Source of the DNA: Shinella zoogloeoides
Lineage (GTDB): Bacteria > Pseudomonadota > Alphaproteobacteria > Rhizobiales > Rhizobiaceae
Direction of reading: 5' to 3'
Length of the DNA: 64,000 nucleotides
NCBI RefSeq assembly: GCF_022682305.1
Contig: NZ_CP093528.1
Span: 248,001-312,000 of the forward strand
Positions 10,398 through 64,000 of the stretch are shown here, piece by piece. Within the stretch, counting starts at the first letter, position 1. Every line of letters begins with the position of its first letter. A program made the translations under genes and the position numbers. The notes beneath the pieces are model-generated. The model made no database searches. It saw nothing but the letters and a program-made list of their open reading frames with translations, and was not told the origin of the DNA.

Positions 10398-10781
10398 ATG
10401 AAACGCGAATCGATCAATGCCAAAAATGCACCCGCTCCGCGTGGCGGCTATTCGCAGGCCGTGAAGATCGAGGATTTCAAGACACTGGTCTTCATCAGCG
10501 GCCAGATCCCCGTTGCCGATGACGACAAGGTGCCGGAGACCTTCGAGGATCAGGCGCGGCTCGTCTGGCGCAATATCGACGCACAGTTGAAGGCCGCGGG
10601 CATGACGAAAGCCGATCTCGTGAAGGTCACGACCTTCCTTTCCGACCGGCACCACGCCACCGCCAACCGCGAGATTCGCAGCGATTATCTCGGCGGCATC
10701 GCCCCGGCGATGAGCGTCGTCATCTGCTCGATCTTCGACGAGAAATGGCTGCTCGAAGTCGAGGCCATCGCAGCGCAATGA
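10398..10781 (+). CDS. RidA family (YjgF/UK114) protein inside the leucine operon
   Basis: A 127-residue single-domain protein. RidA features include VFISGQIPVADD, the central TTFLSD and the C-terminal EVEAIAAQ. The canonical arginine of RidA active sites in the CRVEIEA-type ending region is not obvious, so deaminase activity is uncertain. Classical RidA hydrolyses reactive enamine/imine intermediates of amino-acid metabolism. It lies 12 bp after mccB and 14 bp before mccA, with AGGAGG upstream of its ATG, so it is co-expressed with the carboxylase subunits it separates. Confidence 0.88.
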   Translation: MKRESINAKNAPAPRGGYSQAVKIEDFKTLVFISGQIPVADDDKVPETFEDQARLVWRNIDAQLKAAGMTKADLVKVTTFLSDRHHATANREIRSDYLGGIAPAMSVVICSIFDEKWLLEVEAIAAQ

Positions 10782-56995: not shown

Positions 56996-57035
56996 TGGCT
57001 TGCTGTGGATCGGGTATCTGGTTCAGGGAGAAATT

Positions 57036-57053
57036 TGGTGGAGCTAAGCGGGG
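57036..57053 (-). other. tRNA 3'-end fragment, candidate attachment site
   Basis: On the minus strand the sequence reads CCCCGCTTAGCTCCACCA, as at the 3' end of tRNA-Ala-like genes including CCA. Upstream bases do not complete a tRNA. It lies 110 bp before the integrase, where an att core would be. tmRNA acceptor ends are an alternative source. Confidence 0.6.
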
Positions 57054-57146
57054 TACGAAAACCGAGGGGTATTGCGCTTTTCGTTTCAAATAGTTAAATG
57101 TAACCAATGAGTTCCAAGGATCACCTTGGGTACGTAATTGGGTACG
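57051..57146 (+). repeat. GGGTACG direct repeats ahead of the integrase
   Basis: GGGTACG occurs at 57051-57057, 57128-57134 and 57140-57146. The last two extend to TTGGGTACG with a 12-bp period. They may be recombinase arm-binding sites. Confidence 0.5.
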
Positions 57147-57162
57147 CACCGGACGATTTGAA

Positions 57163-58527
57163 GTGGCAAGACCAGCAAAAAGTGACAAGCGATACCTTGA
57201 GCAACACGGCGCGAAATGGCGCGTTGTCGTGGCGGTCCCCAGAGACCTAAGGGCAACTTTGGGGGCCTCTAAGCTCAAGTACACTCTGGAAACCGACAGT
57301 TTATCAGAGGCCAATCGGCAGAAGTGGGCTGTGGTGGCGGAGTTGCAGGGCCGGATAGAGTCCGCGAGAAATCCCCAAGGGAACCCGGACGACCTCCGCA
57401 AAGAGGCCGCTAAGCTGGCAGCGCTTCGCCGGTCCACGACGACCGAAGATGAAGAAGAAGGCTTGGATGCCTACATCTTACATCGTGTCGAAGAGATTGT
57501 TGGCAAGGCCATCGGCACCGACCGGCAAGGTGACGCCATCTATGAGGCGGCGCGTGAAAGCGAGGGCAAGCTCTTCGCCGGGATCGCAACGGGCCAGCGG
57601 ACGCCGATAGATGCACACCGGCAACGCTATCAGGCGAGCTTGCGTGTGAAGGCTCGAACGCTGGCGGATGACAACAGGGCGATGAAGTACCTGCTAGACT
57701 GGTGCAAGGCGGAGAACGTGCCGCCGTTTCTTGAGAGCTTCGGGCGGCGTGATGCCATTCGGTTTGCAGATGCCTTCCCTGCCTTGATTGGCACCGAGCA
57801 GCCCCGCACCCTGAACAAGTACATTCGCCGTCTTGGTTCCTATTGGAAGTGGATGGAGAGCCGCGACGAGGTGTCCGCGAACGTTTGGCAGGGGCGCACC
57901 TATACCATTCCGATTGAGACTGACGCTCAGAAGGAGCGCCCCTTCACGACTGCCGAGTTGGTGGCCTTGCTCAATGGTCCCGCCTCGCCGGAAATGCACG
58001 ACCTCATGCGTATCGCTGCCCTGACAGGGGCGCGGCTGGACGCTATCGTTTGCCTCAGGGCGAAGGACTGCAAGGATGGAAACTTCATCTTCAAGCCGCA
58101 GAAGAAGGAAACATCGTCCCGGCTTGTCCCGATCCACTCGGCCCTCAAGGAAATCGTAGAGCGCCGCACGGCCAACCTTGGGGAGGACGACAGCATATTC
58201 CCCGAGTGGCCCCCGGCGAAGTCCAGCAAGTCCTTGCGTGAACATTCGTTCAAGGCGTCGAACAATTTCACCGACTACCGCCGCAGCTTAAAGGTCGAAG
58301 ACACGCGAGAGGGCAACAGGCGGTCCCGCGTCAACTTCCATTCCTTCCGTCGCTGGTTCATCACCGCTGCCGAACGGGCAGACCAGCCGGAGGGCATCAT
58401 CGCGGCAGTCGTGGGCCACAAGCGGAACGGGATGACCCTTGGGGTTTACTCGGCGGGACCAGCGCTGGAGCAAGCAAGGCGATGTGTTGAGGCGGTCAAG
58501 CTCCCGAGTGGGAAGCAATCCTCATGA
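57163..58527 (+). CDS. Tyrosine recombinase / phage integrase
   Basis: A 454-residue integrase. The N-terminal ~70 residues (GAKWRVVVAVPRDLRATLG) resemble the DUF6538 arm-binding head. A SAM-like core-binding domain spans ~155-235. The catalytic domain has Arg291 (LTGARLDAI), His393-x-x-Arg396 (FHSFRRWF), His419 (VVGHKRNG) and Tyr429 (LGVYSAG), so all key residues are present. The start is GTG, with no strong ribosome binding site. Codon use is less GC-biased than in the core genes. The next gene overlaps its stop by ATGA. Confidence 0.93.
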   Translation: MARPAKSDKRYLEQHGAKWRVVVAVPRDLRATLGASKLKYTLETDSLSEANRQKWAVVAELQGRIESARNPQGNPDDLRKEAAKLAALRRSTTTEDEEEGLDAYILHRVEEIVGKAIGTDRQGDAIYEAARESEGKLFAGIATGQRTPIDAHRQRYQASLRVKARTLADDNRAMKYLLDWCKAENVPPFLESFGRRDAIRFADAFPALIGTEQPRTLNKYIRRLGSYWKWMESRDEVSANVWQGRTYTIPIETDAQKERPFTTAELVALLNGPASPEMHDLMRIAALTGARLDAIVCLRAKDCKDGNFIFKPQKKETSSRLVPIHSALKEIVERRTANLGEDDSIFPEWPPAKSSKSLREHSFKASNNFTDYRRSLKVEDTREGNRRSRVNFHSFRRWFITAAERADQPEGIIAAVVGHKRNGMTLGVYSAGPALEQARRCVEAVKLPSGKQSS

Positions 58528-59240
58528 ATGAACGGATGTCTCTCTCCGAAATCAAAGCCGCAATCCTGAAAAAGCGACGGCAACGGATACGGCGTCACAC
58601 CTATGCCTACGTGGCCGATGCCATCATTGCAGACGCGACAACCGACCAGCCCTTCCGGCACCGGCTGATTTTCGACTGGTGGAACCGTGTGGTGGACCCG
58701 CTGGAAGCCGAGAAATTTGACGTCGAGCGGCTACGCTATTTCCGCTCGCGATTGAAAGAGCATCGCAATTCCGCCGCCCACAATGCCGCCGTTCGGCAGG
58801 GTAAGGAGAGCGGGGCGACCCTTCGAAGGCTGAATACTGCAAATCTCGCATACGTTCAGCATCAGGTGCAGCGCCTATCGGATCGCAGTCTAAACTACGC
58901 GGCGGCGGAGCGAGCCGTGGCCGAGAGCGACCGCGCCTTTGAACACCTAGCGTTGGGGCTGGTGGCGCTTCCTGAGCTTCGCACCCGACAGTTCGGCCGT
59001 CTGGAGCGGATAGCCTTTACGTGCTCTTGCGATCCACGTTTCCCCGCGCTTGCGGAACGCCTTCGGTCTGACCCGGCTGGCATTCTCCCCGATATCGCCC
59101 CGAGGTGGATCGAAAGACGGCTCACAGAAATCACCGATCCCGTCGATCCGATCTGGCTGTTTGGCGATGACTACATCGAGACAAAACGTCGGGAAGGTCT
59201 TATACGGAAGTTAGAAGAAGAATATATGAATGAAATCTGA
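58524..59240 (+). CDS. Hypothetical protein coupled to the integrase
   Basis: A 238-residue soluble, helix-rich, basic protein, not recognised. The N-terminal part (SLSEIKAAILKKRRQRIRRH) is strongly basic and could bind nucleic acid. The middle contains HRNSAAHNAAVRQGKESGAT, and the C-terminal part CSCDPRFPALAERLRSDPAG. Its ATG overlaps the integrase stop, so they are translated together. A recombination directionality or regulatory role is possible but unsupported. Confidence 0.7.
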   Translation: MNERMSLSEIKAAILKKRRQRIRRHTYAYVADAIIADATTDQPFRHRLIFDWWNRVVDPLEAEKFDVERLRYFRSRLKEHRNSAAHNAAVRQGKESGATLRRLNTANLAYVQHQVQRLSDRSLNYAAAERAVAESDRAFEHLALGLVALPELRTRQFGRLERIAFTCSCDPRFPALAERLRSDPAGILPDIAPRWIERRLTEITDPVDPIWLFGDDYIETKRREGLIRKLEEEYMNEI

Positions 59241-59294
59241 TAGTTATTATGGATGCACTATGAGGACACCCCAAGCCCTCGAAAGGAGCTACCC

Positions 59295-59612
59295 ATGAAC
59301 TACGAAACCTTCTTCTGCACCGCCCTTCCGGCCGCCAAGCAAGCCACGCGCCACGTCTTTGAAGGCCTGAAAGGCGACAAGACGATGCGGTCGCGAGGGC
59401 CGCTCGCAGAGGATCATGTCATTCTGTTGGGGATGGCCGTTCGCTGGCTGGATGCTTGCGACGAAATCCTCACCCGAGAGTCATCTCCCAGCCCCGCTCA
59501 GCTTTTGCAGGTCGGGAAGACGATGGTCGATGCGAACAAGATTTTGTTTGATGCCGTGGCGTGGTACGCCAACGCGGACAAGCTGAGCAACGCCGCGTGC
59601 TCTTGGGTCTAG
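59295..59612 (+). CDS. Hypothetical small protein of the element
   Basis: A 105-residue protein beginning MNYETFFCTALPAAKQATRH, largely helical, with no recognised domain. AAGGAG seven bases before the ATG supports the start. No signal or membrane segment. It stands 55 bp after the previous gene, and gene-free repeated DNA follows. Confidence 0.65.
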   Translation: MNYETFFCTALPAAKQATRHVFEGLKGDKTMRSRGPLAEDHVILLGMAVRWLDACDEILTRESSPSPAQLLQVGKTMVDANKILFDAVAWYANADKLSNAACSWV

Positions 59613-59660
59613 CGAGCAATTCGCTGCCCGGAGGCTCTGCCCATTCCTTCGCGGGACCTC

Positions 59661-59880
59661 CTTCCATCTCCTTCTTCACCGTCTCCGCCCACTTGTCTAC
59701 CTATCCCGCATGTCGTCGCCCTCCCGCGACGTGCGGTCCCCGTTGGCCGCAGCCGACAATTACCTCCCACTATAGAGAACCCCGAGCCGCCTTATCGCCT
59801 CTGCCGGTTCACCCACGGGCCTCCTTCCGTCTCCACCAGACCCGCGTTCTTTCTGTTGCGGTAAAGGCGTTTCAGCGCGT
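59661..59880. repeat. Repeat copy A (~220 bp)
   Basis: 59661-59739 matches 60270-60348 over 79 bases with about ten differences (shared core GCCCTCCCGCGACGTGCGGT), and 59836-59880 matches 60452-60497 (shared TTTCTGTTGCGGTA). The sequence between the two blocks differs: here it contains the T7-type promoter. Confidence 0.75.
59758..59780 (+). promoter_or_regulatory. T7-family phage RNA polymerase promoter
   Basis: AATTA at 59758-59762 and CACTATA-G at 59768-59775 occupy exactly -17 to -13 and -7 to +1, followed by AGAAC. Phage K11, T3 and SP6 promoters have AATTA or ATTTA at the same distance from CACTA(T/A)AG. Host sigma factors do not use this design. No phage RNA polymerase gene is in the window. 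Confidence 0.7.
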
Positions 59881-60269
59881 TTCGGCGGGTGGCCGGTAGG
59901 TTGCCCTCCGGGGCCAGCGATGACGCTCAGTGTGCGTGTGGAAAGCCGGGATAATTAACGCCACATACTGAGAAGAGCGTGACTCTGGGATCGCAGGCAA
60001 TTATCCGCCCATACTGTACATACGAACAAAATCTTTCGAGCAACCGACGCGGCTTGGATTGCAGGAAAGACAAGAACGTTGCTTTGCCGAAGACAAAATC
60101 CGCTGGCGAAGAAAAAATCTAACCCGCCCTTGAATTCACATTTGCCTAACATTATTCGCGTGTGCGCGTCTTTAAGTTACCTATAGTTATATAAGGTTTC
60201 TTTCTAGGTTTAAGAAGAAGTATTCCACCTAAGATAACCTTCAGCTTCTCCCGGTCTCCTCGGGTAAAC

Positions 60270-60497
60270 CTTCCATCTCCTCCTTCATCGTCTCCATCCC
60301 CTTGTCTTTTTATCCCGCATGTCTTCGCCCTCCCGCGACGTGCGGTCCAAGGATGCTGCCTTGTAGATCGCTTACGCCTCCCGGCGGTGTGCTTTGCTTG
60401 ATCTCGGCGGCATCCTTGGTGTTCTTCCTAATCCCGCATCCTCCATCGCCGCCAGACCCACGCCCTTTCTGTTGCGGTAGGAGCGATTTAGCGCGTT
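60270..60497. repeat. Repeat copy B (~230 bp)
   Basis: Second copy of the repeat at 59661-59880, shifted by about 610 bp. In place of the promoter segment it carries a 73-bp segment bounded by inverted repeats (60347-60419). Confidence 0.75.
60347..60419. repeat. 73-bp segment with 14-bp terminal inverted repeats
   Basis: CCAAGGATGCTGCC (60347-60360) and GGCGGCATCCTTGG (60406-60419) match at 13 of 14 positions as inverted repeats, enclosing 45 bases. It could form a long hairpin or be a miniature mobile insertion within repeat copy B. Confidence 0.6.
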
Positions 60498-60636
60498 CGT
60501 CGTCTTCCGTGACCGATGACACCCGAGAGTCCCTCGCGGCTCTCCACGGCTGACATTTCCAGCCGCTCCATCCACCGCCACCTCATCACCCCATCCGCCC
60601 CGGCTTCACCACCGGGCGTCTCAGCGCGTCCTCAAG

Positions 60637-61116
60637 ATGCGCACTTTCTCCGGGCAACCGCCCGTCCACTGGCAAAGGTATCCAGATTTGAACACCGCCA
60701 CCACCATCACCATTGAACTCTTCGGCTCCTTCGGCGCTCGCCACGTTGAAGGCGGCACCAGCGTTGATCGCGCCAAGTGCACCCGCAAGGACACAGCGAA
60801 AAGCCCGATACCGGTTCTCTGCCGACTTCTGCTCAAACAGGGTCATGACCCGCAGGAGCGCGTCCATGTCATCCGCAAGGCGTTGGACCGGGAAGGCTTC
60901 ATCCCAGTCTTCCGTCGCGACCGCACTCTGGCGGCATGGGCCGGGACCGATATGGTCGAAAGCGATACGCGCTCCCTCCACCCCGTCCGATACCGTGCAT
61001 TTCCTGACTCCGTAGGCGTCAAGGACGCGCAAGACGGGGGCGAGGTAGGCAAGGGTAGCTCCGAACCCAAACGCCTCTCCACGGCTTCCACCGCAACACT
61101 GGGAGTCGCCGCATGA
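60637..61116 (+). CDS. Possible hypothetical protein upstream of the virion genes
   Basis: A 159-residue frame whose third codon positions are GC-rich from about residue 19 on. Its stop TGA overlaps the ATG of the gp13-like gene (ATGA), which favours it over the antisense frame at 60586-61032. No family recognised; the first residues have weak codons, so the true start may be later or the gene may be a decayed 3' part of a longer phage gene. Confidence 0.35.
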   Translation: MRTFSGQPPVHWQRYPDLNTATTITIELFGSFGARHVEGGTSVDRAKCTRKDTAKSPIPVLCRLLLKQGHDPQERVHVIRKALDREGFIPVFRRDRTLAAWAGTDMVESDTRSLHPVRYRAFPDSVGVKDAQDGGEVGKGSSEPKRLSTASTATLGVAA

Positions 61117-61613
61117 CTCTGGCCTCCGCTTACCTCATCCGCGAACTCCAGCCGGACGACCTCGACTACATCGCCGCCAATCTCCGCGCCGCCGACGCGA
61201 GGGAACTCCGGGCGGCTTCCGGCCACTCGAACTACCGCGACCGCCTCACCATGGCTGTTGCCGAGTCCTCAGAGGTCCGCATCGTGGAGCACGACGGGCG
61301 ACCTATACTTGTCTTCGGCTTCGCGCCGCTGGACGAGACCACGGCAGGAGTATGGGCCGTGGGAACCTCTACGGTCTCCCGGTTCCGCGCTCCGCTGGTG
61401 CGAGAGACCCGCAATGTCATCCGCCGATGGTTCGAGGAGCATTCCAAGCTGCGATACCTCGTCAACTTCACCCATGCCAGCAACCGCCTCTATCTTCGCT
61501 GGCTCCGGTCAATCGGTGCGACGGTATTCCCAAGGAAACCCATAGGATTTCAGGGGGAACTCTTCCGCCCGTTCGTGATCGAAAGGAGCGCAGCGTGTGC
61601 GACCCCGGTATGA
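61113..61613 (+). CDS. T7 gp13-like internal virion protein (GNAT fold)
   Basis: A 166-residue protein resembling gp13/DUF2833 of T7-type podophages. The order IVEHDGRPILVFGFAPL, VWAVGTSTVSRFRAPLVRE and VNFTHASNRLYLRWLRSIG matches T7 gp13 (compare its WVGNTSHIRFLKTIGAVF) in spacing and in the NxxHxxxLRxLxxIGA pattern, a GNAT-like core. In T7, gp13 is needed for assembly of the ejected core proteins. It overlaps the gp14-like gene by 19 bp, in the phage gene order. Confidence 0.8.
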   Translation: MTLASAYLIRELQPDDLDYIAANLRAADARELRAASGHSNYRDRLTMAVAESSEVRIVEHDGRPILVFGFAPLDETTAGVWAVGTSTVSRFRAPLVRETRNVIRRWFEEHSKLRYLVNFTHASNRLYLRWLRSIGATVFPRKPIGFQGELFRPFVIERSAACATPV

Positions 61614-62104
61614 TCCTTGGGCTTGCCTCCGGTGCCGCCTCCGCCATTGGTGAGGCCCAAGCCGCCGATGCCAACATGGACCAATCCATTCGGCAAGCGA
61701 AGCTGGAGCACGCTACCCAAGAGCAGGAGCGGTTGATCCAGGTCGATGGCGCAAACAAGGAAGGCTATCAGGCTCAGCTTGAGGGCGACCGCGCCGCATC
61801 GGCCGTCCGCGCCATGGGCGAGGGAATGGGCGGGGCCACGGCGGGACAACAGGTTGCCGAGCAACGCCGCCAGACTGCCTTGTCCATAGAGAACGCGAAG
61901 GACCGGAAGTCAGCCGCCAATGCAAACTATGCAATGGCCGGGAAGCATTCCCAGATCAACGCTCAGAACGATATCAACCGCCAAGCCATCAGCCCCATGA
62001 CTTCGTTCTTCAACATCGCCTCGTCCGGTGCTTCTGGCTACGGCACGTTGGGCGACTTCCCGTCCGGTAAATCCGCCACGACACCGGCAGGGCGCTTCAA
62101 GTGA
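61595..62104 (+). CDS. T7 gp14-like internal virion protein
   Basis: A 169-residue protein beginning MCDPGMILGLASGAASAIGE, as gp14-type proteins begin with MCxP/MCW and a small-residue helix. A long helical middle (QAKLEHATQEQERLIQVDGA, AAIRAMGEG-like AVRAMGEGMGGATAGQQVAE) follows, then a Gly/Ser-rich end. T7 gp14 forms the outer-membrane channel during DNA ejection. Start GTG at 61595 with AAAGGAG six bases upstream. Genes gp15/16-like (core proteins), expected next in a whole phage, are absent: a terminator follows. Confidence 0.78.
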   Translation: MCDPGMILGLASGAASAIGEAQAADANMDQSIRQAKLEHATQEQERLIQVDGANKEGYQAQLEGDRAASAVRAMGEGMGGATAGQQVAEQRRQTALSIENAKDRKSAANANYAMAGKHSQINAQNDINRQAISPMTSFFNIASSGASGYGTLGDFPSGKSATTPAGRFK

Positions 62105-62113
62105 TCTCTCAGG

Positions 62114-62142
62114 AGGGTGGGCCTTCGGGCCTACCCCTTTTT
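62114..62142 (+). terminator. Terminator with UUCG tetraloop after the virion genes
   Basis: GGGTGGGCC (62115-62123), loop TTCG, GGCCTACCC (62128-62136), then CTTTTT. One G-T pair; the C(UUCG)G loop is extra-stable. Confidence 0.88.
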
Positions 62143-62207
62143 GTCACTGCCAACTACGAGTATTAGTTTGCCCGAATTCAAAGCAAACTCGGACTGGCGA
62201 AGCGCCG

Positions 62208-62696
62208 TTACGTGGCGGTGCAGAGGCTAATGCCCTTCTTCACGAACATTTCCCATTTCGGCCCCAAGGTCTCCTTCGCGGAAATCGCCTGAGACGCGCC
62301 GGGTTCTCCTTCGCGGAACATGCGGATGGCGTAAGACTGATCGTAGGAGCCGGTAACGATTGTCGGTCCCGGCTGGTAAACCGTCGTTGCGTTGTAAGTT
62401 CCGTAGCCGCCGTACACGTTCGCAGTGCCGTAGGTGTTGTAGTGGCCGGGAAGCTGCGTGACGCTGACGCTATCCGATGCACCAGCGCCTGTTATGATGT
62501 AGCGATCATAACCAGCTTTGATGGTCTCGATAGCGGCTTGCTTCTCGGCCACCCGAGCGGCCCCGATGCTTCCACACATGGGTTCCGCGCTGGTCTTGAT
62601 AATAGCGGTGTTCTGCGACGTCCTGACGGCGGTCGAGCTTGTGCAACCCGATATGGCGATACCGCCGAGCAGGACGACTACAGCAATCTTCTTCAA
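62208..62696 (-). CDS. Putative lipoprotein
   Basis: A 162-residue protein starting at a TTG (62696) with AGGGGG nearby: MKKIAVVVLLGGIAISGCTS is a lipoprotein signal with lipobox AISGC (cysteine 18). The mature part contains a Tyr/Gly/Thr-rich section (YGTANVYGGYGTYNATTVYQ) and a helical end WEMFVKKGISLC. Such small lipoproteins occur widely and are uncharacterised. It faces the virion genes from the opposite strand and could be an accessory (moron-type) gene of the element. Confidence 0.75.
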   Translation of the reverse strand: MKKIAVVVLLGGIAISGCTSSTAVRTSQNTAIIKTSAEPMCGSIGAARVAEKQAAIETIKAGYDRYIITGAGASDSVSVTQLPGHYNTYGTANVYGGYGTYNATTVYQPGPTIVTGSYDQSYAIRMFREGEPGASQAISAKETLGPKWEMFVKKGISLCTAT

Positions 62697-62800
62697 CTTC
62701 TGCCCCCTAGATATTCTCCTTTCGGCACAATGCATAATTGAAGAGCGGAGACAAGCGGTGGTTTTAGGTTGCTAACACCGCAAGGTCCCGTAGTTCCCCG

Positions 62801-63004
62801 TCAGCGCCCTCTGGCCGCGTTGTCGGTGACTTCATACGTCACCGCGCCGGGAGGCATCGCGCGTTCCGCCCGTTCGTTGGCGTTCTCGATGCTGTATGCC
62901 TTGAGGGTCTCCGCGAGGATGAAGCGGTTCCCGGTGCCGTAATAGGCGACCGTGAAGAACCCGAGGCGATCCCCGGCGCGTCTTGTTCTGTCTCTCCTCG
63001 CCAT
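62801..63004 (-). CDS. Small hypothetical protein (67 residues)
   Basis: Begins MARRDRTRRAGDRLGFFTVA and has no recognised domain. ATG at 63004; a GTG at 63010 overlapping the upstream gene stop is the alternative. It shares F-x-V-x-YY with the protein encoded just upstream and may be a distant tandem paralogue. Confidence 0.55.
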   Translation of the reverse strand: MARRDRTRRAGDRLGFFTVAYYGTGNRFILAETLKAYSIENANERAERAMPPGAVTYEVTDNAARGR

Positions 63005-63006
63005 CG

Positions 63007-63285
63007 TCACGCCGCCGCGTTCCGGCTGACTTCGCGGTTTGCCATGATCATCATGACAGCCGCCGCCCGGATATGCTGAGGACCGACAGCGATTGCCGCT
63101 TGGTCTTCGACAATCTGGAAGTCGGCAATGCTTCTCTTGTCGCGGCTCTTATGCACCTCGTCCCATGCTGCCTCGCAAGCCTCCCAGTAGCCGGTTGCCA
63201 TAATCGTTCCGGTGCGAAGCGCTGCTCCGCATTCCGTGTAGTAGACAACGCCGAAGGTGCGCGGTGCGGGTCTTGTCTTTGCCAT
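63007..63285 (-). CDS. Small hypothetical protein (92 residues)
   Basis: Begins MAKTRPAPRTFGVVYYTECG, followed by a helical region (TGYWEACEAAWDEVHKSRDK) and IVEDQAAIAVGPQHIRAAAV. No family recognised; soluble. It is read in tandem with the 67-residue gene, stop and next start overlapping or nearly so. Possible operator palindromes lie about 100 bp upstream at 63379-63415. Confidence 0.6.
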   Translation of the reverse strand: MAKTRPAPRTFGVVYYTECGAALRTGTIMATGYWEACEAAWDEVHKSRDKRSIADFQIVEDQAAIAVGPQHIRAAAVMMIMANREVSRNAAA

Positions 63286-63539
63286 GGTCCCGAAATCTCC
63301 TCTGAGTGAACCGCGAGTGTCGCGGCGGGACCTCCTATTGCTCACATCAAAGCGCCGAATAAAAGCACTAAATTTGGAGATATTCTCAGGAATATCAAAG
63401 GCTTCGTTATCGAAGATAATGGCGAAACGGCTCTGCCATGGATATCCGGGCGGTGTCCGCGAGAGAACCCGGAGGTCTCTTCGGTTGCGGAGGAAATGAA
63501 AAAGTTCGCGTGGCGAGCGCCGGTCGGGGGGGGGGCACC
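63286..63539. other. Intergenic region with operator-like palindromes
   Basis: No gene seen. Holds the two palindromes at 63379-63415 and a run of ten G (63526-63535) just past the stop of the 34-residue frame. Confidence 0.5.
63379..63415. promoter_or_regulatory. Two adjacent palindromes, candidate operator
   Basis: GATATTC-TCAG-GAATATC (63379-63396) is a perfect 7-bp palindrome with a 4-base centre, and CTTCG-TTAT-CGAAG (63402-63415) a perfect 5-bp one, six bases away. They lie upstream of the minus-strand small genes, where a phage repressor could bind. Confidence 0.45.
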
Positions 63540-63644
63540 TCAGATGAACTTAATCAACAGAGGCAACATCAAGAGAAATGCGAGAACACTGGACGCAATC
63601 GCGGCGGCAATCCCGGCGGCTTTTTCTGCTTTCGTTTTGTGCAT
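63540..63644 (-). CDS. Putative 34-residue single-helix membrane peptide
   Basis: Reads MHKTKAEKAAGIAAAIASSV followed by LAFLLMLPLLIKFI. A basic, helical N-terminus is joined to one strongly hydrophobic helix (about residues 17-33). GGGGAG lies about four bases before the ATG on the minus strand. It resembles small phage membrane proteins such as holin-like peptides in layout only. Short length limits certainty. Confidence 0.5.
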   Translation of the reverse strand: MHKTKAEKAAGIAAAIASSVLAFLLMLPLLIKFI

Positions 63645-64000
63645 GGCTGCTCCCCATTTTTTGCATTCCAAGCTTCAGGCCTATGCAAGCCGCGTATGGA
63701 TGCGGAGTCAATACCGATGATCCCTATATCCTCGATAGGAACCTTGAAGGGGTGCTGGGGATGAGAAAACACCCAAACGCCGCAGCGGTCGGATTGCCGA
63801 GAACATGGGTGAGTTGAATCAGTAGGCCTATACGGACGGACGCAACACCTGCGAAAATGGCCGATGCGGTGAACCCGTTGCCACCCGCCATCTTGGCAAA
63901 TGACAAAAAAGACCCCCGGCTTGGCTCTTCCGGGGGCCTTGAGTTCTTCTTGAGGAGGGACAAGATGCTGCCATCATTCTGCACGGGGACGTATACAGAG
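63645..64000. other. Right-edge stretch without a supported gene
   Basis: No coding frame with a convincing start or codon use. A minus-strand terminator lies at 63905-63936, so a minus-strand gene probably ends there or enters from beyond the right edge. Confidence 0.5.
63905..63936 (-). terminator. Minus-strand Rho-independent terminator
   Basis: CCCCCGG (63913-63919) and CCGGGGG (63930-63936) form the stem; on the minus strand TC and six T follow (63910-63905). It would end a transcript entering from the right. Confidence 0.82.

Follow-up and report, generated by a model that had tools for sequence, protein, structure and literature searches.

The window that we analyzed, 64,000 nucleotides from Shinella zoogloeoides, includes the left part of a 10,211-bp (10.2 kb) island integrated at tRNA-Ala(GGC) (Table 1). 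The 18-bp repeats that flank it, starting at 57035 and at 67228 in numbering continued past the window, define this unit, and the intact copy of the tRNA gene marks its right end. GC content is 0.579 in the island and 0.653 in the remaining window. A tyrosine integrase comes first, followed by two ORFs without a recognized family, a leader of ~0.9 kb, orf142, genes for gp13- and gp14-like proteins and small ORFs; beyond the window lie a BRO-N antirepressor-like gene and a serine resolvase, and then an EPSP-synthase gene.

Table 1 Features of the tRNA-Ala(GGC) island, in window positions
Feature	Position	Strand	Evidence or remark
attL, 18-bp repeat TTGGTGGAGCTAAGCGGG	57035..57052		Repeat comparison
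Tyrosine integrase, DUF6538 N-terminal domain	57163..58527	+	Family profile scans
ORF, 238 aa	58524..59240	+	No family match in scans
ORF, 119 aa	59253..59612	+	No family match in scans
Promoter-like site 1 (phage-RNAP)	59758..59778	+	AATTA CCTCC CAC TATAG AGA; phage-only matrix 18.4; start predicted at G59775
Leader without convincing gene	59776..60687	+	60351–60650 has 82–98% identity per 50 bp to PQ7
Promoter-like site 2 (phage-RNAP)	59953..59973	+	AATTA ACGCC ACA TACTG AGA; matrix 19.9, best in 104 kb
Promoter-like site 3 (phage-RNAP)	59999..60019	+	AATTA TCCGC CCA TACTG TAC; matrix 15.0, third in 104 kb
orf142	60688..61116	+	TTG start inferred from homologues; gene common to island family
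Internal virion protein, T7 gp13-like	61113..61613	+	phrog_308, 1.2e-26
Internal virion (core) protein, T7 gp14-like	61595..62104	+	T7_gp14 PF24072, 35 bits, cut-off 27
attR, second 18-bp copy	67228–67245, continued numbering (L001:3228–3245), beyond window		Overlaps tRNA-Ala(GGC) 3' end

The two genes that a preliminary description of this DNA had likened to T7 internal virion genes are indeed of this kind, and lie on the same strand as site 1, 1.35 and 1.8 kb downstream. The gp13-like protein is 41–47% identical to those of four phage loci (L378, L379, L380 and L381), and scores 20.1 bits against the Pfam T7 Gp13 profile, under the cut-off of 25. The gp14-like protein, whose profile match was obtained with the ORF scanned as 61352–62104, is 71% identical over 152 aa to that of phage G784. 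Family scans found no capsid, portal, tail or terminase gene in the island, in contrast to what defines a prophage; as in phage satellites, there is no full virion or replication set, and a site-specific integrase and att repeats are present. Among island ORFs of at least 60 aa, only gp13, gp14 and BRO matched the T7-like phages compared; the sole match to the resolvase in the compared phages was a G420 stretch outside the gp genes. None of eight window-island proteins matched in a PADLOC defence scan, and nothing in 57000–64000 exceeded an Rfam gathering score.

On the plus strand, positions 59758–59780 read AATTACCTCCCACTATAGAGAAC, confirming the motif reported there, and this sequence fits the T7-type promoter family, with an AT-rich block at −17 to −13 and a TATA-like block at −4 to +1 at the fixed spacing. 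The motif is not scattered through the genome at chance frequency: AATTACCTCCCACTATAG at 59758–59775 is the sole match with at most one mismatch in the 5.14-Mb genome (5,141,032 bases), and a reversed-pattern control gave no match at the same tolerance over the same bases. The preliminary description had advised a search for further copies in the element; none exists as a near-identical sequence, but sites 2 and 3 are additional promoter-like copies. With up to two mismatches, AATTA-N5-CACTATAG matches the 64-kb window once, and exactly (shuffles: mean 0.11, at least one in 11/100). No phage was found to carry several copies of the window core; AATTA-N5-CACTATAGAG occurs once each in 66 IMG/VR stretches, approximately the chance expectation by a rough estimate. 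Pattern scans of IMG/VR returned 66, at least 120 and 9 stretches, with single copies except for one stretch with two.

By an E. coli-type consensus, there is no sigma-70-like promoter in 59600–60700, and a host sigma-70 promoter in the leader was rejected on this ground. A leader segment is duplicated (59647–59881 and 60256–60497, diverged copies at 80–84%, ~610 bp apart). The first copy begins upstream of the leader, and site 59758 sits between its repeat blocks and is absent from the second. A hairpin with a 14-bp stem is predicted near 60346–60420, in a block about as conserved in the related island of Shinella zoogloeoides PQ7 as the coding genes, and could serve as a signal for RNA processing or packaging.

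T7-like phages use a private RNA polymerase (RNAP), and it had been suggested that one belonging to this element might lie beyond the window. This idea fails, as the island ends at 67245 in continued numbering and a PF00940 (T7-type polymerase) search of this genome and that of PQ7 (G020) found none, while the T7 positive control matched; the island is therefore without a T7-type polymerase of its own. PF00940 occurs in 8 of 394 family genomes, with neither this genome nor the listed Shinella genomes among them. Relatives of gp13 occur in 14/394 family genomes and, at E ≤ 1e-8, in 21/397 genomes of the order, this genome being included in both counts. Of the 14 gp13-bearing genomes tested, three (G309, G454 and G089) contain PF00940, and 92 stretches around gp13 relatives and others, many of them short, gave no RNAP match. 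Because 11 of these genomes and all of these stretches are without it, the gp13 family alone does not imply an RNAP.

Which phages might supply the polymerase? Six loci were retrieved when IMG/VR was scanned with a gp14 alignment. In tblastn with the window's gp14 as query, identity is 71% for L378/G784, 62% for L379/G785, 57% for both L380 and L381, 51% for L382 (the same record as G309) and 50% for L383/G786; nearer gp14 proteins exist (72–94%), and this ranking is one of relatives with readable DNA outside PQ7. The nearest of these (G784, G785, G309 and G786) are phage records encoding a T7-type RNAP. PF00940 is found in all three of G784, G785 and G786, and in G309 the RNAP gene lies in the same prophage as the gp13 relative. 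Compared with the G309 enzyme, the polymerases of G784 and G785 show 65% identity. The preliminary description likened the motif to K11-, T3- and SP6-type promoters; the match is not to these three in particular, but to the promoters of a T7-like phage clade (G309, G784 and G785) that is related to Rhizobiaceae prophages. CAC at −7 to −5 is the core of K11, T3 and SP6 promoters, and it is not conserved in the relatives of site 59758: the phages have TCA or CCA, and only the G198 island described below has CAC among related sites. At the orthologous PQ7 site GCA occupies this position, so that CACTATAG is not conserved in its exact form. K11, T3 and SP6 phages were set aside as the promoter source because the gp14 relatives that are readable resemble G309, which is a Rhizobiaceae prophage.

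The closest likeness is to the promoters of G309, G784 and G785 (Autographiviridae), which are approximately of the form AATT[TA]-N6-CATA[TC]AG, lie on the same strand as the genes near those for RNAP, portal and capsid, and number six in G309, three in G785 and one in G784. Like the island sites, they have AATT[TA] at −17 to −13 and CATA[TC]AG or CATATTG, or similar, running to +1. By contrast, the island clusters copies with differing −12 to −8 blocks and encodes no polymerase. In G309, AATTTCCCCCTCATAT[A/T]G is found six times on the same strand: before the RNAP gene, right after it (two copies), before the portal gene, which was assigned by size and order, before the capsid genes, and after terminase; three of the six overlap small predicted ORFs, and a degenerate seventh lies inside gp13. 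AATTAGGGCTTCATACAG occurs three times in G785, 43 bp ahead of the RNAP ORF, past that ORF and before portal, two of these copies having one base changed; AATTACCCCTCCATATAG occurs once in G784, before portal. No such motif was found in G786 and G768 (RNAP 52% to G309), and other RNAP-bearing phages examined have different motifs or none that is recognizable. The lytic Rhizobiaceae T7-like phages TM33, X3_9 and Atu_ph02 were rejected as the helper type, as their de novo repeated motifs differ; Alfirin has no repeated motif and was omitted from the motif comparison. AF/Ab31-type temperate podoviruses (half of the record covered) were the first candidate and were dropped when G309, and then G784 and G785, proved closer. 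Temperate Rhizobium T7-like phages (Paadamvirus RHEph01, vTRX32-1) combine an integrase, BRO beside RNAP, and gp13/gp14; RHEph01 (43,444 bp) is a complete phage that encodes an RNAP itself, and its gp14 is only 24% identical.

A 13-base pattern picked for its T7 likeness is weak evidence alone, and a more independent test is provided by a weight matrix built from ten phage sites only (six from G309, three from G785 and one from G784, each phage weighted once). Across both strands of 104 kb, its three best matches are sites 2, 1 and 3, all on the plus strand of the leader and within 262 bp; the next match scores 13.5. Among 500 column-permuted matrices run over the same 104 kb, three or more matches of at least 15 occurred in 1/500, any such match in 102/500 and a maximum of at least 18.4 in 4/500. 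Among 150 Markov-1 randomized islands, two or more matches of at least 15 occurred in 1/150, any in 11/150 and a maximum of at least 18.4 in 2/150. The single-hit controls are less strict than the clustering controls. In 1,066,361 bases from 49 sources, a chosen subset that includes the window and PQ7 and omits G309, G784, G785 and G786 (L217/L218, which duplicate L011, were removed), 14 matches scored at least 15: three in the window, two in PQ7, one in G321, three in RHEph01 and five singles elsewhere. Scored by positions −12 to −5 and +2 to +4 alone, 59758 and 59999 are modest (top 4–4.5% of island positions), 59953 is in the top 0.3%, and the PQ7 sites 8704 and 8744 are in the top 2% and 0.2%, with 59953 and 59999 being sites that the matrix itself chose. 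The window site has weak likeness to the motifs of G255 (P 0.02) and TM33 (P 0.047), as does PQ7 site 8744 to that of RHEph01 (P 0.027). To say that only G309 matches would be too strong, because RHEph01 also has sites that match the matrix. These three RHEph01 matches (L207:4889, 7789 and 8347) adjoin the RNAP and BRO genes, and its early promoters may, from their sequence, be in the same family.

More broadly, orf142 has matches in 6 of 247 family genomes, this one included, and with PQ7 there are seven loci. Promoter-like sites precede orf142 at four of the seven, the window included, and thus at three of six related loci (PQ7, G321 and G198); none was found at G264, G280 and G153. The PQ7 island (L011) carries a large serine recombinase, leader, orf142, gp13, gp14 and an N-terminal piece of gp16, and an OLD/Gabija-like ATPase lies near it. 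Its borders were not found, and a repeat acting as a serine-integrase att site is not supported, with no convincing flanking repeat of at least 13 bp. The blastn match between the window and PQ7 starts exactly at the motif's AATTA; the orthologous place reads AATTACCCCTGCATATAG, and 40 bp upstream of it stands a second AATTA-N8-TATAG; these two sites (8744 and 8704) are the two best matrix matches of 20 kb, in the same place as the window sites. The counterpart of site 59999, at L011:8938, is weaker (10.5) and one base longer. Between the window and PQ7, dN/dS is 0.15 for gp13, 0.12 for gp14 and 0.35 for the ORF at 60637–61113. The two Shinella islands also have in common a 97-bp stretch from the resolvase gene's end (L011:11681–11777 and 66850–66946 in continued numbering), PQ7 having no other match to the resolvase gene of the window island; this stretch is perhaps a common ancestral right end.

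In G321, an integrase with a DUF6538 match lies beside tRNA-Leu, and orf142, a gp16 piece and an AbiJ-type gene are present, the last adjoining a resolvase that has 70% identity to that of the window island; a flanking repeat and borders were not found. Four promoter-like copies, 75–80 bp apart, precede its orf142 (4310, 4389, 4469 and 4544) and score 4.7, 15.5, 13.3 and 10.7 with the phage-only matrix, the first and fourth being low. G198 has a tRNA-Leu with a 19-bp repeat (5329/14984), an integrase with a weak Pfam match and, inside the repeats, an MmeI-type restriction gene. Before its orf142, at 10720, stands AATTACCCCCCACAATAG, which agrees with the window site at 16/20 positions and whose matrix score of 11.1 is low, yet the best of its 19.9 kb. 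The same island (L396:11905–13014) encodes a phage Rha domain fused to a serine resolvase. G264 has a tRNA-Leu with a 25-bp repeat (12254/19489), orf142, BRO matches and a 47-aa piece matching terminase, and the orf142 of G280 contains two stops.

The −12 to −8 region sets specificity in T7 and T3 promoters. The mean difference in this region is 0 within G309 and within G785, whereas it is 0.53 in the window, 1.0 in PQ7 (counted with two sites) and 0.57 in G321; at −17 to −13, these three arrays differ internally by 0 to 0.1. Positions −7 to +1 also vary in the window array (0.42); divergent specificity and decay would each be consistent with this. CCCCT at −12 to −8 is common to PQ7 8744, the second G321 site and phage G784, and CCCCC to the G198 site and G309. 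Copies that keep AATTA and a TATAG-like start and differ at −12 to −8 fit a sensor that responds to more than a single phage polymerase. Tentatively, and with somewhat less than even confidence, we suggest that this Rhizobiaceae island family senses T7-like phages via promoter arrays, such that any of several polymerases would turn on one operon of orf142 and borrowed virion genes. Such an array could, on this same tentative footing, act through its promoters as a sensor of multiple phages, carried by either a phage satellite or a defence island.

We propose, with a probability of roughly 0.6, that the locus is a satellite-like island inducible by phage and that the phage-RNAP promoters in its leader differ in specificity; the satellite behavior raised in the preliminary description is now what the sequences best suggest. 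Support comes from the island borders, the absence of PF00940, the likeness of the sites to those of RNAP-bearing phages, their clustering, their presence at three of six related loci and the low dN/dS of gp13 and gp14. Several findings count against it: capsid-remodelling, terminase and replication genes were not recognized in the island, sites 59953 and 59999 end in TACTG, G784 has a single promoter copy, and G786 and G768 yielded none. The changed core in PQ7, the failure to find a phage with repeated copies of the window core, the many gp13 relatives without an RNAP, the three orf142 loci without sites, the weaker single-hit controls and the low scores in G321 and G198 also weigh against it. 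The parts that we infer, namely transcription by a phage RNAP, silence without one, induction, mobilization and interference, could fit together as follows. Host RNA polymerase should not use the T7-type array upstream of the orf142–gp13–gp14 operon. Infection by a T7-like phage, whether of the G309/G784/G785 clade or related to it, would bring in a single-subunit RNAP that reads the array and turns the operon on. The operon could then let the island travel with that phage as a satellite, probably while interfering with it, and island gp13 and gp14 would enter, or compete in, the phage ejection core.

Site-specific integration, an integrase and few virion genes are features that the window island shares with the phage satellites PICI, P4-like, PLE and PICMI. 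As in satellites, tRNA repeats occur in the window, G198 and G264 islands (7.2–10.2 kb), and the family has BRO/Rha-type antirepressor-like genes and some defence-type genes. PICMI115 is switched on through alpA (PMC10803314). The switch proposed here would differ in being read directly by the phage polymerase; no AlpA match was found among the proteins scanned, which partly cover the small ORFs, and a BRO-N antirepressor-like gene is present.

Alternatively, the island could be the remnant of a T7-like prophage (Autographiviridae), with the promoters and gp13/gp14 as relics without a present role. We regard this as unlikely, although it would explain why gp13, gp14 and the gp16 pieces of PQ7 and G321 are virion genes out of a full set, and why G264 retains a piece of terminase; the −7 to +1 variation would also fit decay. 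However, gp13 and gp14 are open and have low dN/dS between the two Shinella islands, part of which may date from phage life, and the leader–orf142–gp13–gp14 block is the same in these islands despite their different integrases. Moreover, tblastn with orf142 gave no match to the phages compared, and the leader has little likeness to G309 (nothing better than E 0.42 for the window and one 48-bp match at 0.003 for PQ7). Promoter-like sites before orf142 are kept in four islands with different phage genes, their −12 to −8 blocks differ within one array, unlike those of G309 or G785, and the single-subunit RNAP that a T7-like prophage should own is missing in the PF00940 search.

Still less probable, in our view, is an infection-triggered defence island that is not packaged, in which a phage RNAP would activate orf142 together with virion proteins that act as decoys and spoil the phage core. 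The internal virion genes in the operon do stand isolated, with no virion set around them, and defence-type genes lie inside the G198 repeats (MmeI-type) and in or beside the PQ7 and G321 islands, whose borders are not located (OLD/Gabija-like and AbiJ-type, respectively). The PADLOC scan of the window island speaks against it, as do the tRNA repeats, integrase and resolvase of a mobile element, although the two roles are compatible and not exclusive. Finally, chance resemblance of AT-rich leader words to T7-type promoters is very improbable: the 13-base pattern is short, 15/20 agreement with a G309 promoter was reached in 10/200 Markov-1 randomized islands and permuted matrices often give a single match of at least 15, but the three best matches of 104 kb are clustered, sites recur in the same place in PQ7, G321 and G198, and the background in the 49 chosen sources is low.

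In the open full-text PMC literature, the scope of our search, we found no paper on such an island, which would be an integrated parasite or defence island that senses T7-like phages directly. No infection switch would be simpler than a promoter that only a phage polymerase can use, and several different promoters in an array would broaden the range of phages sensed. If the satellite-like reading is true, a mobile island of a soil bacterium would stay silent until a T7-like virus enters, and would then hitch-hike with it or fight it.
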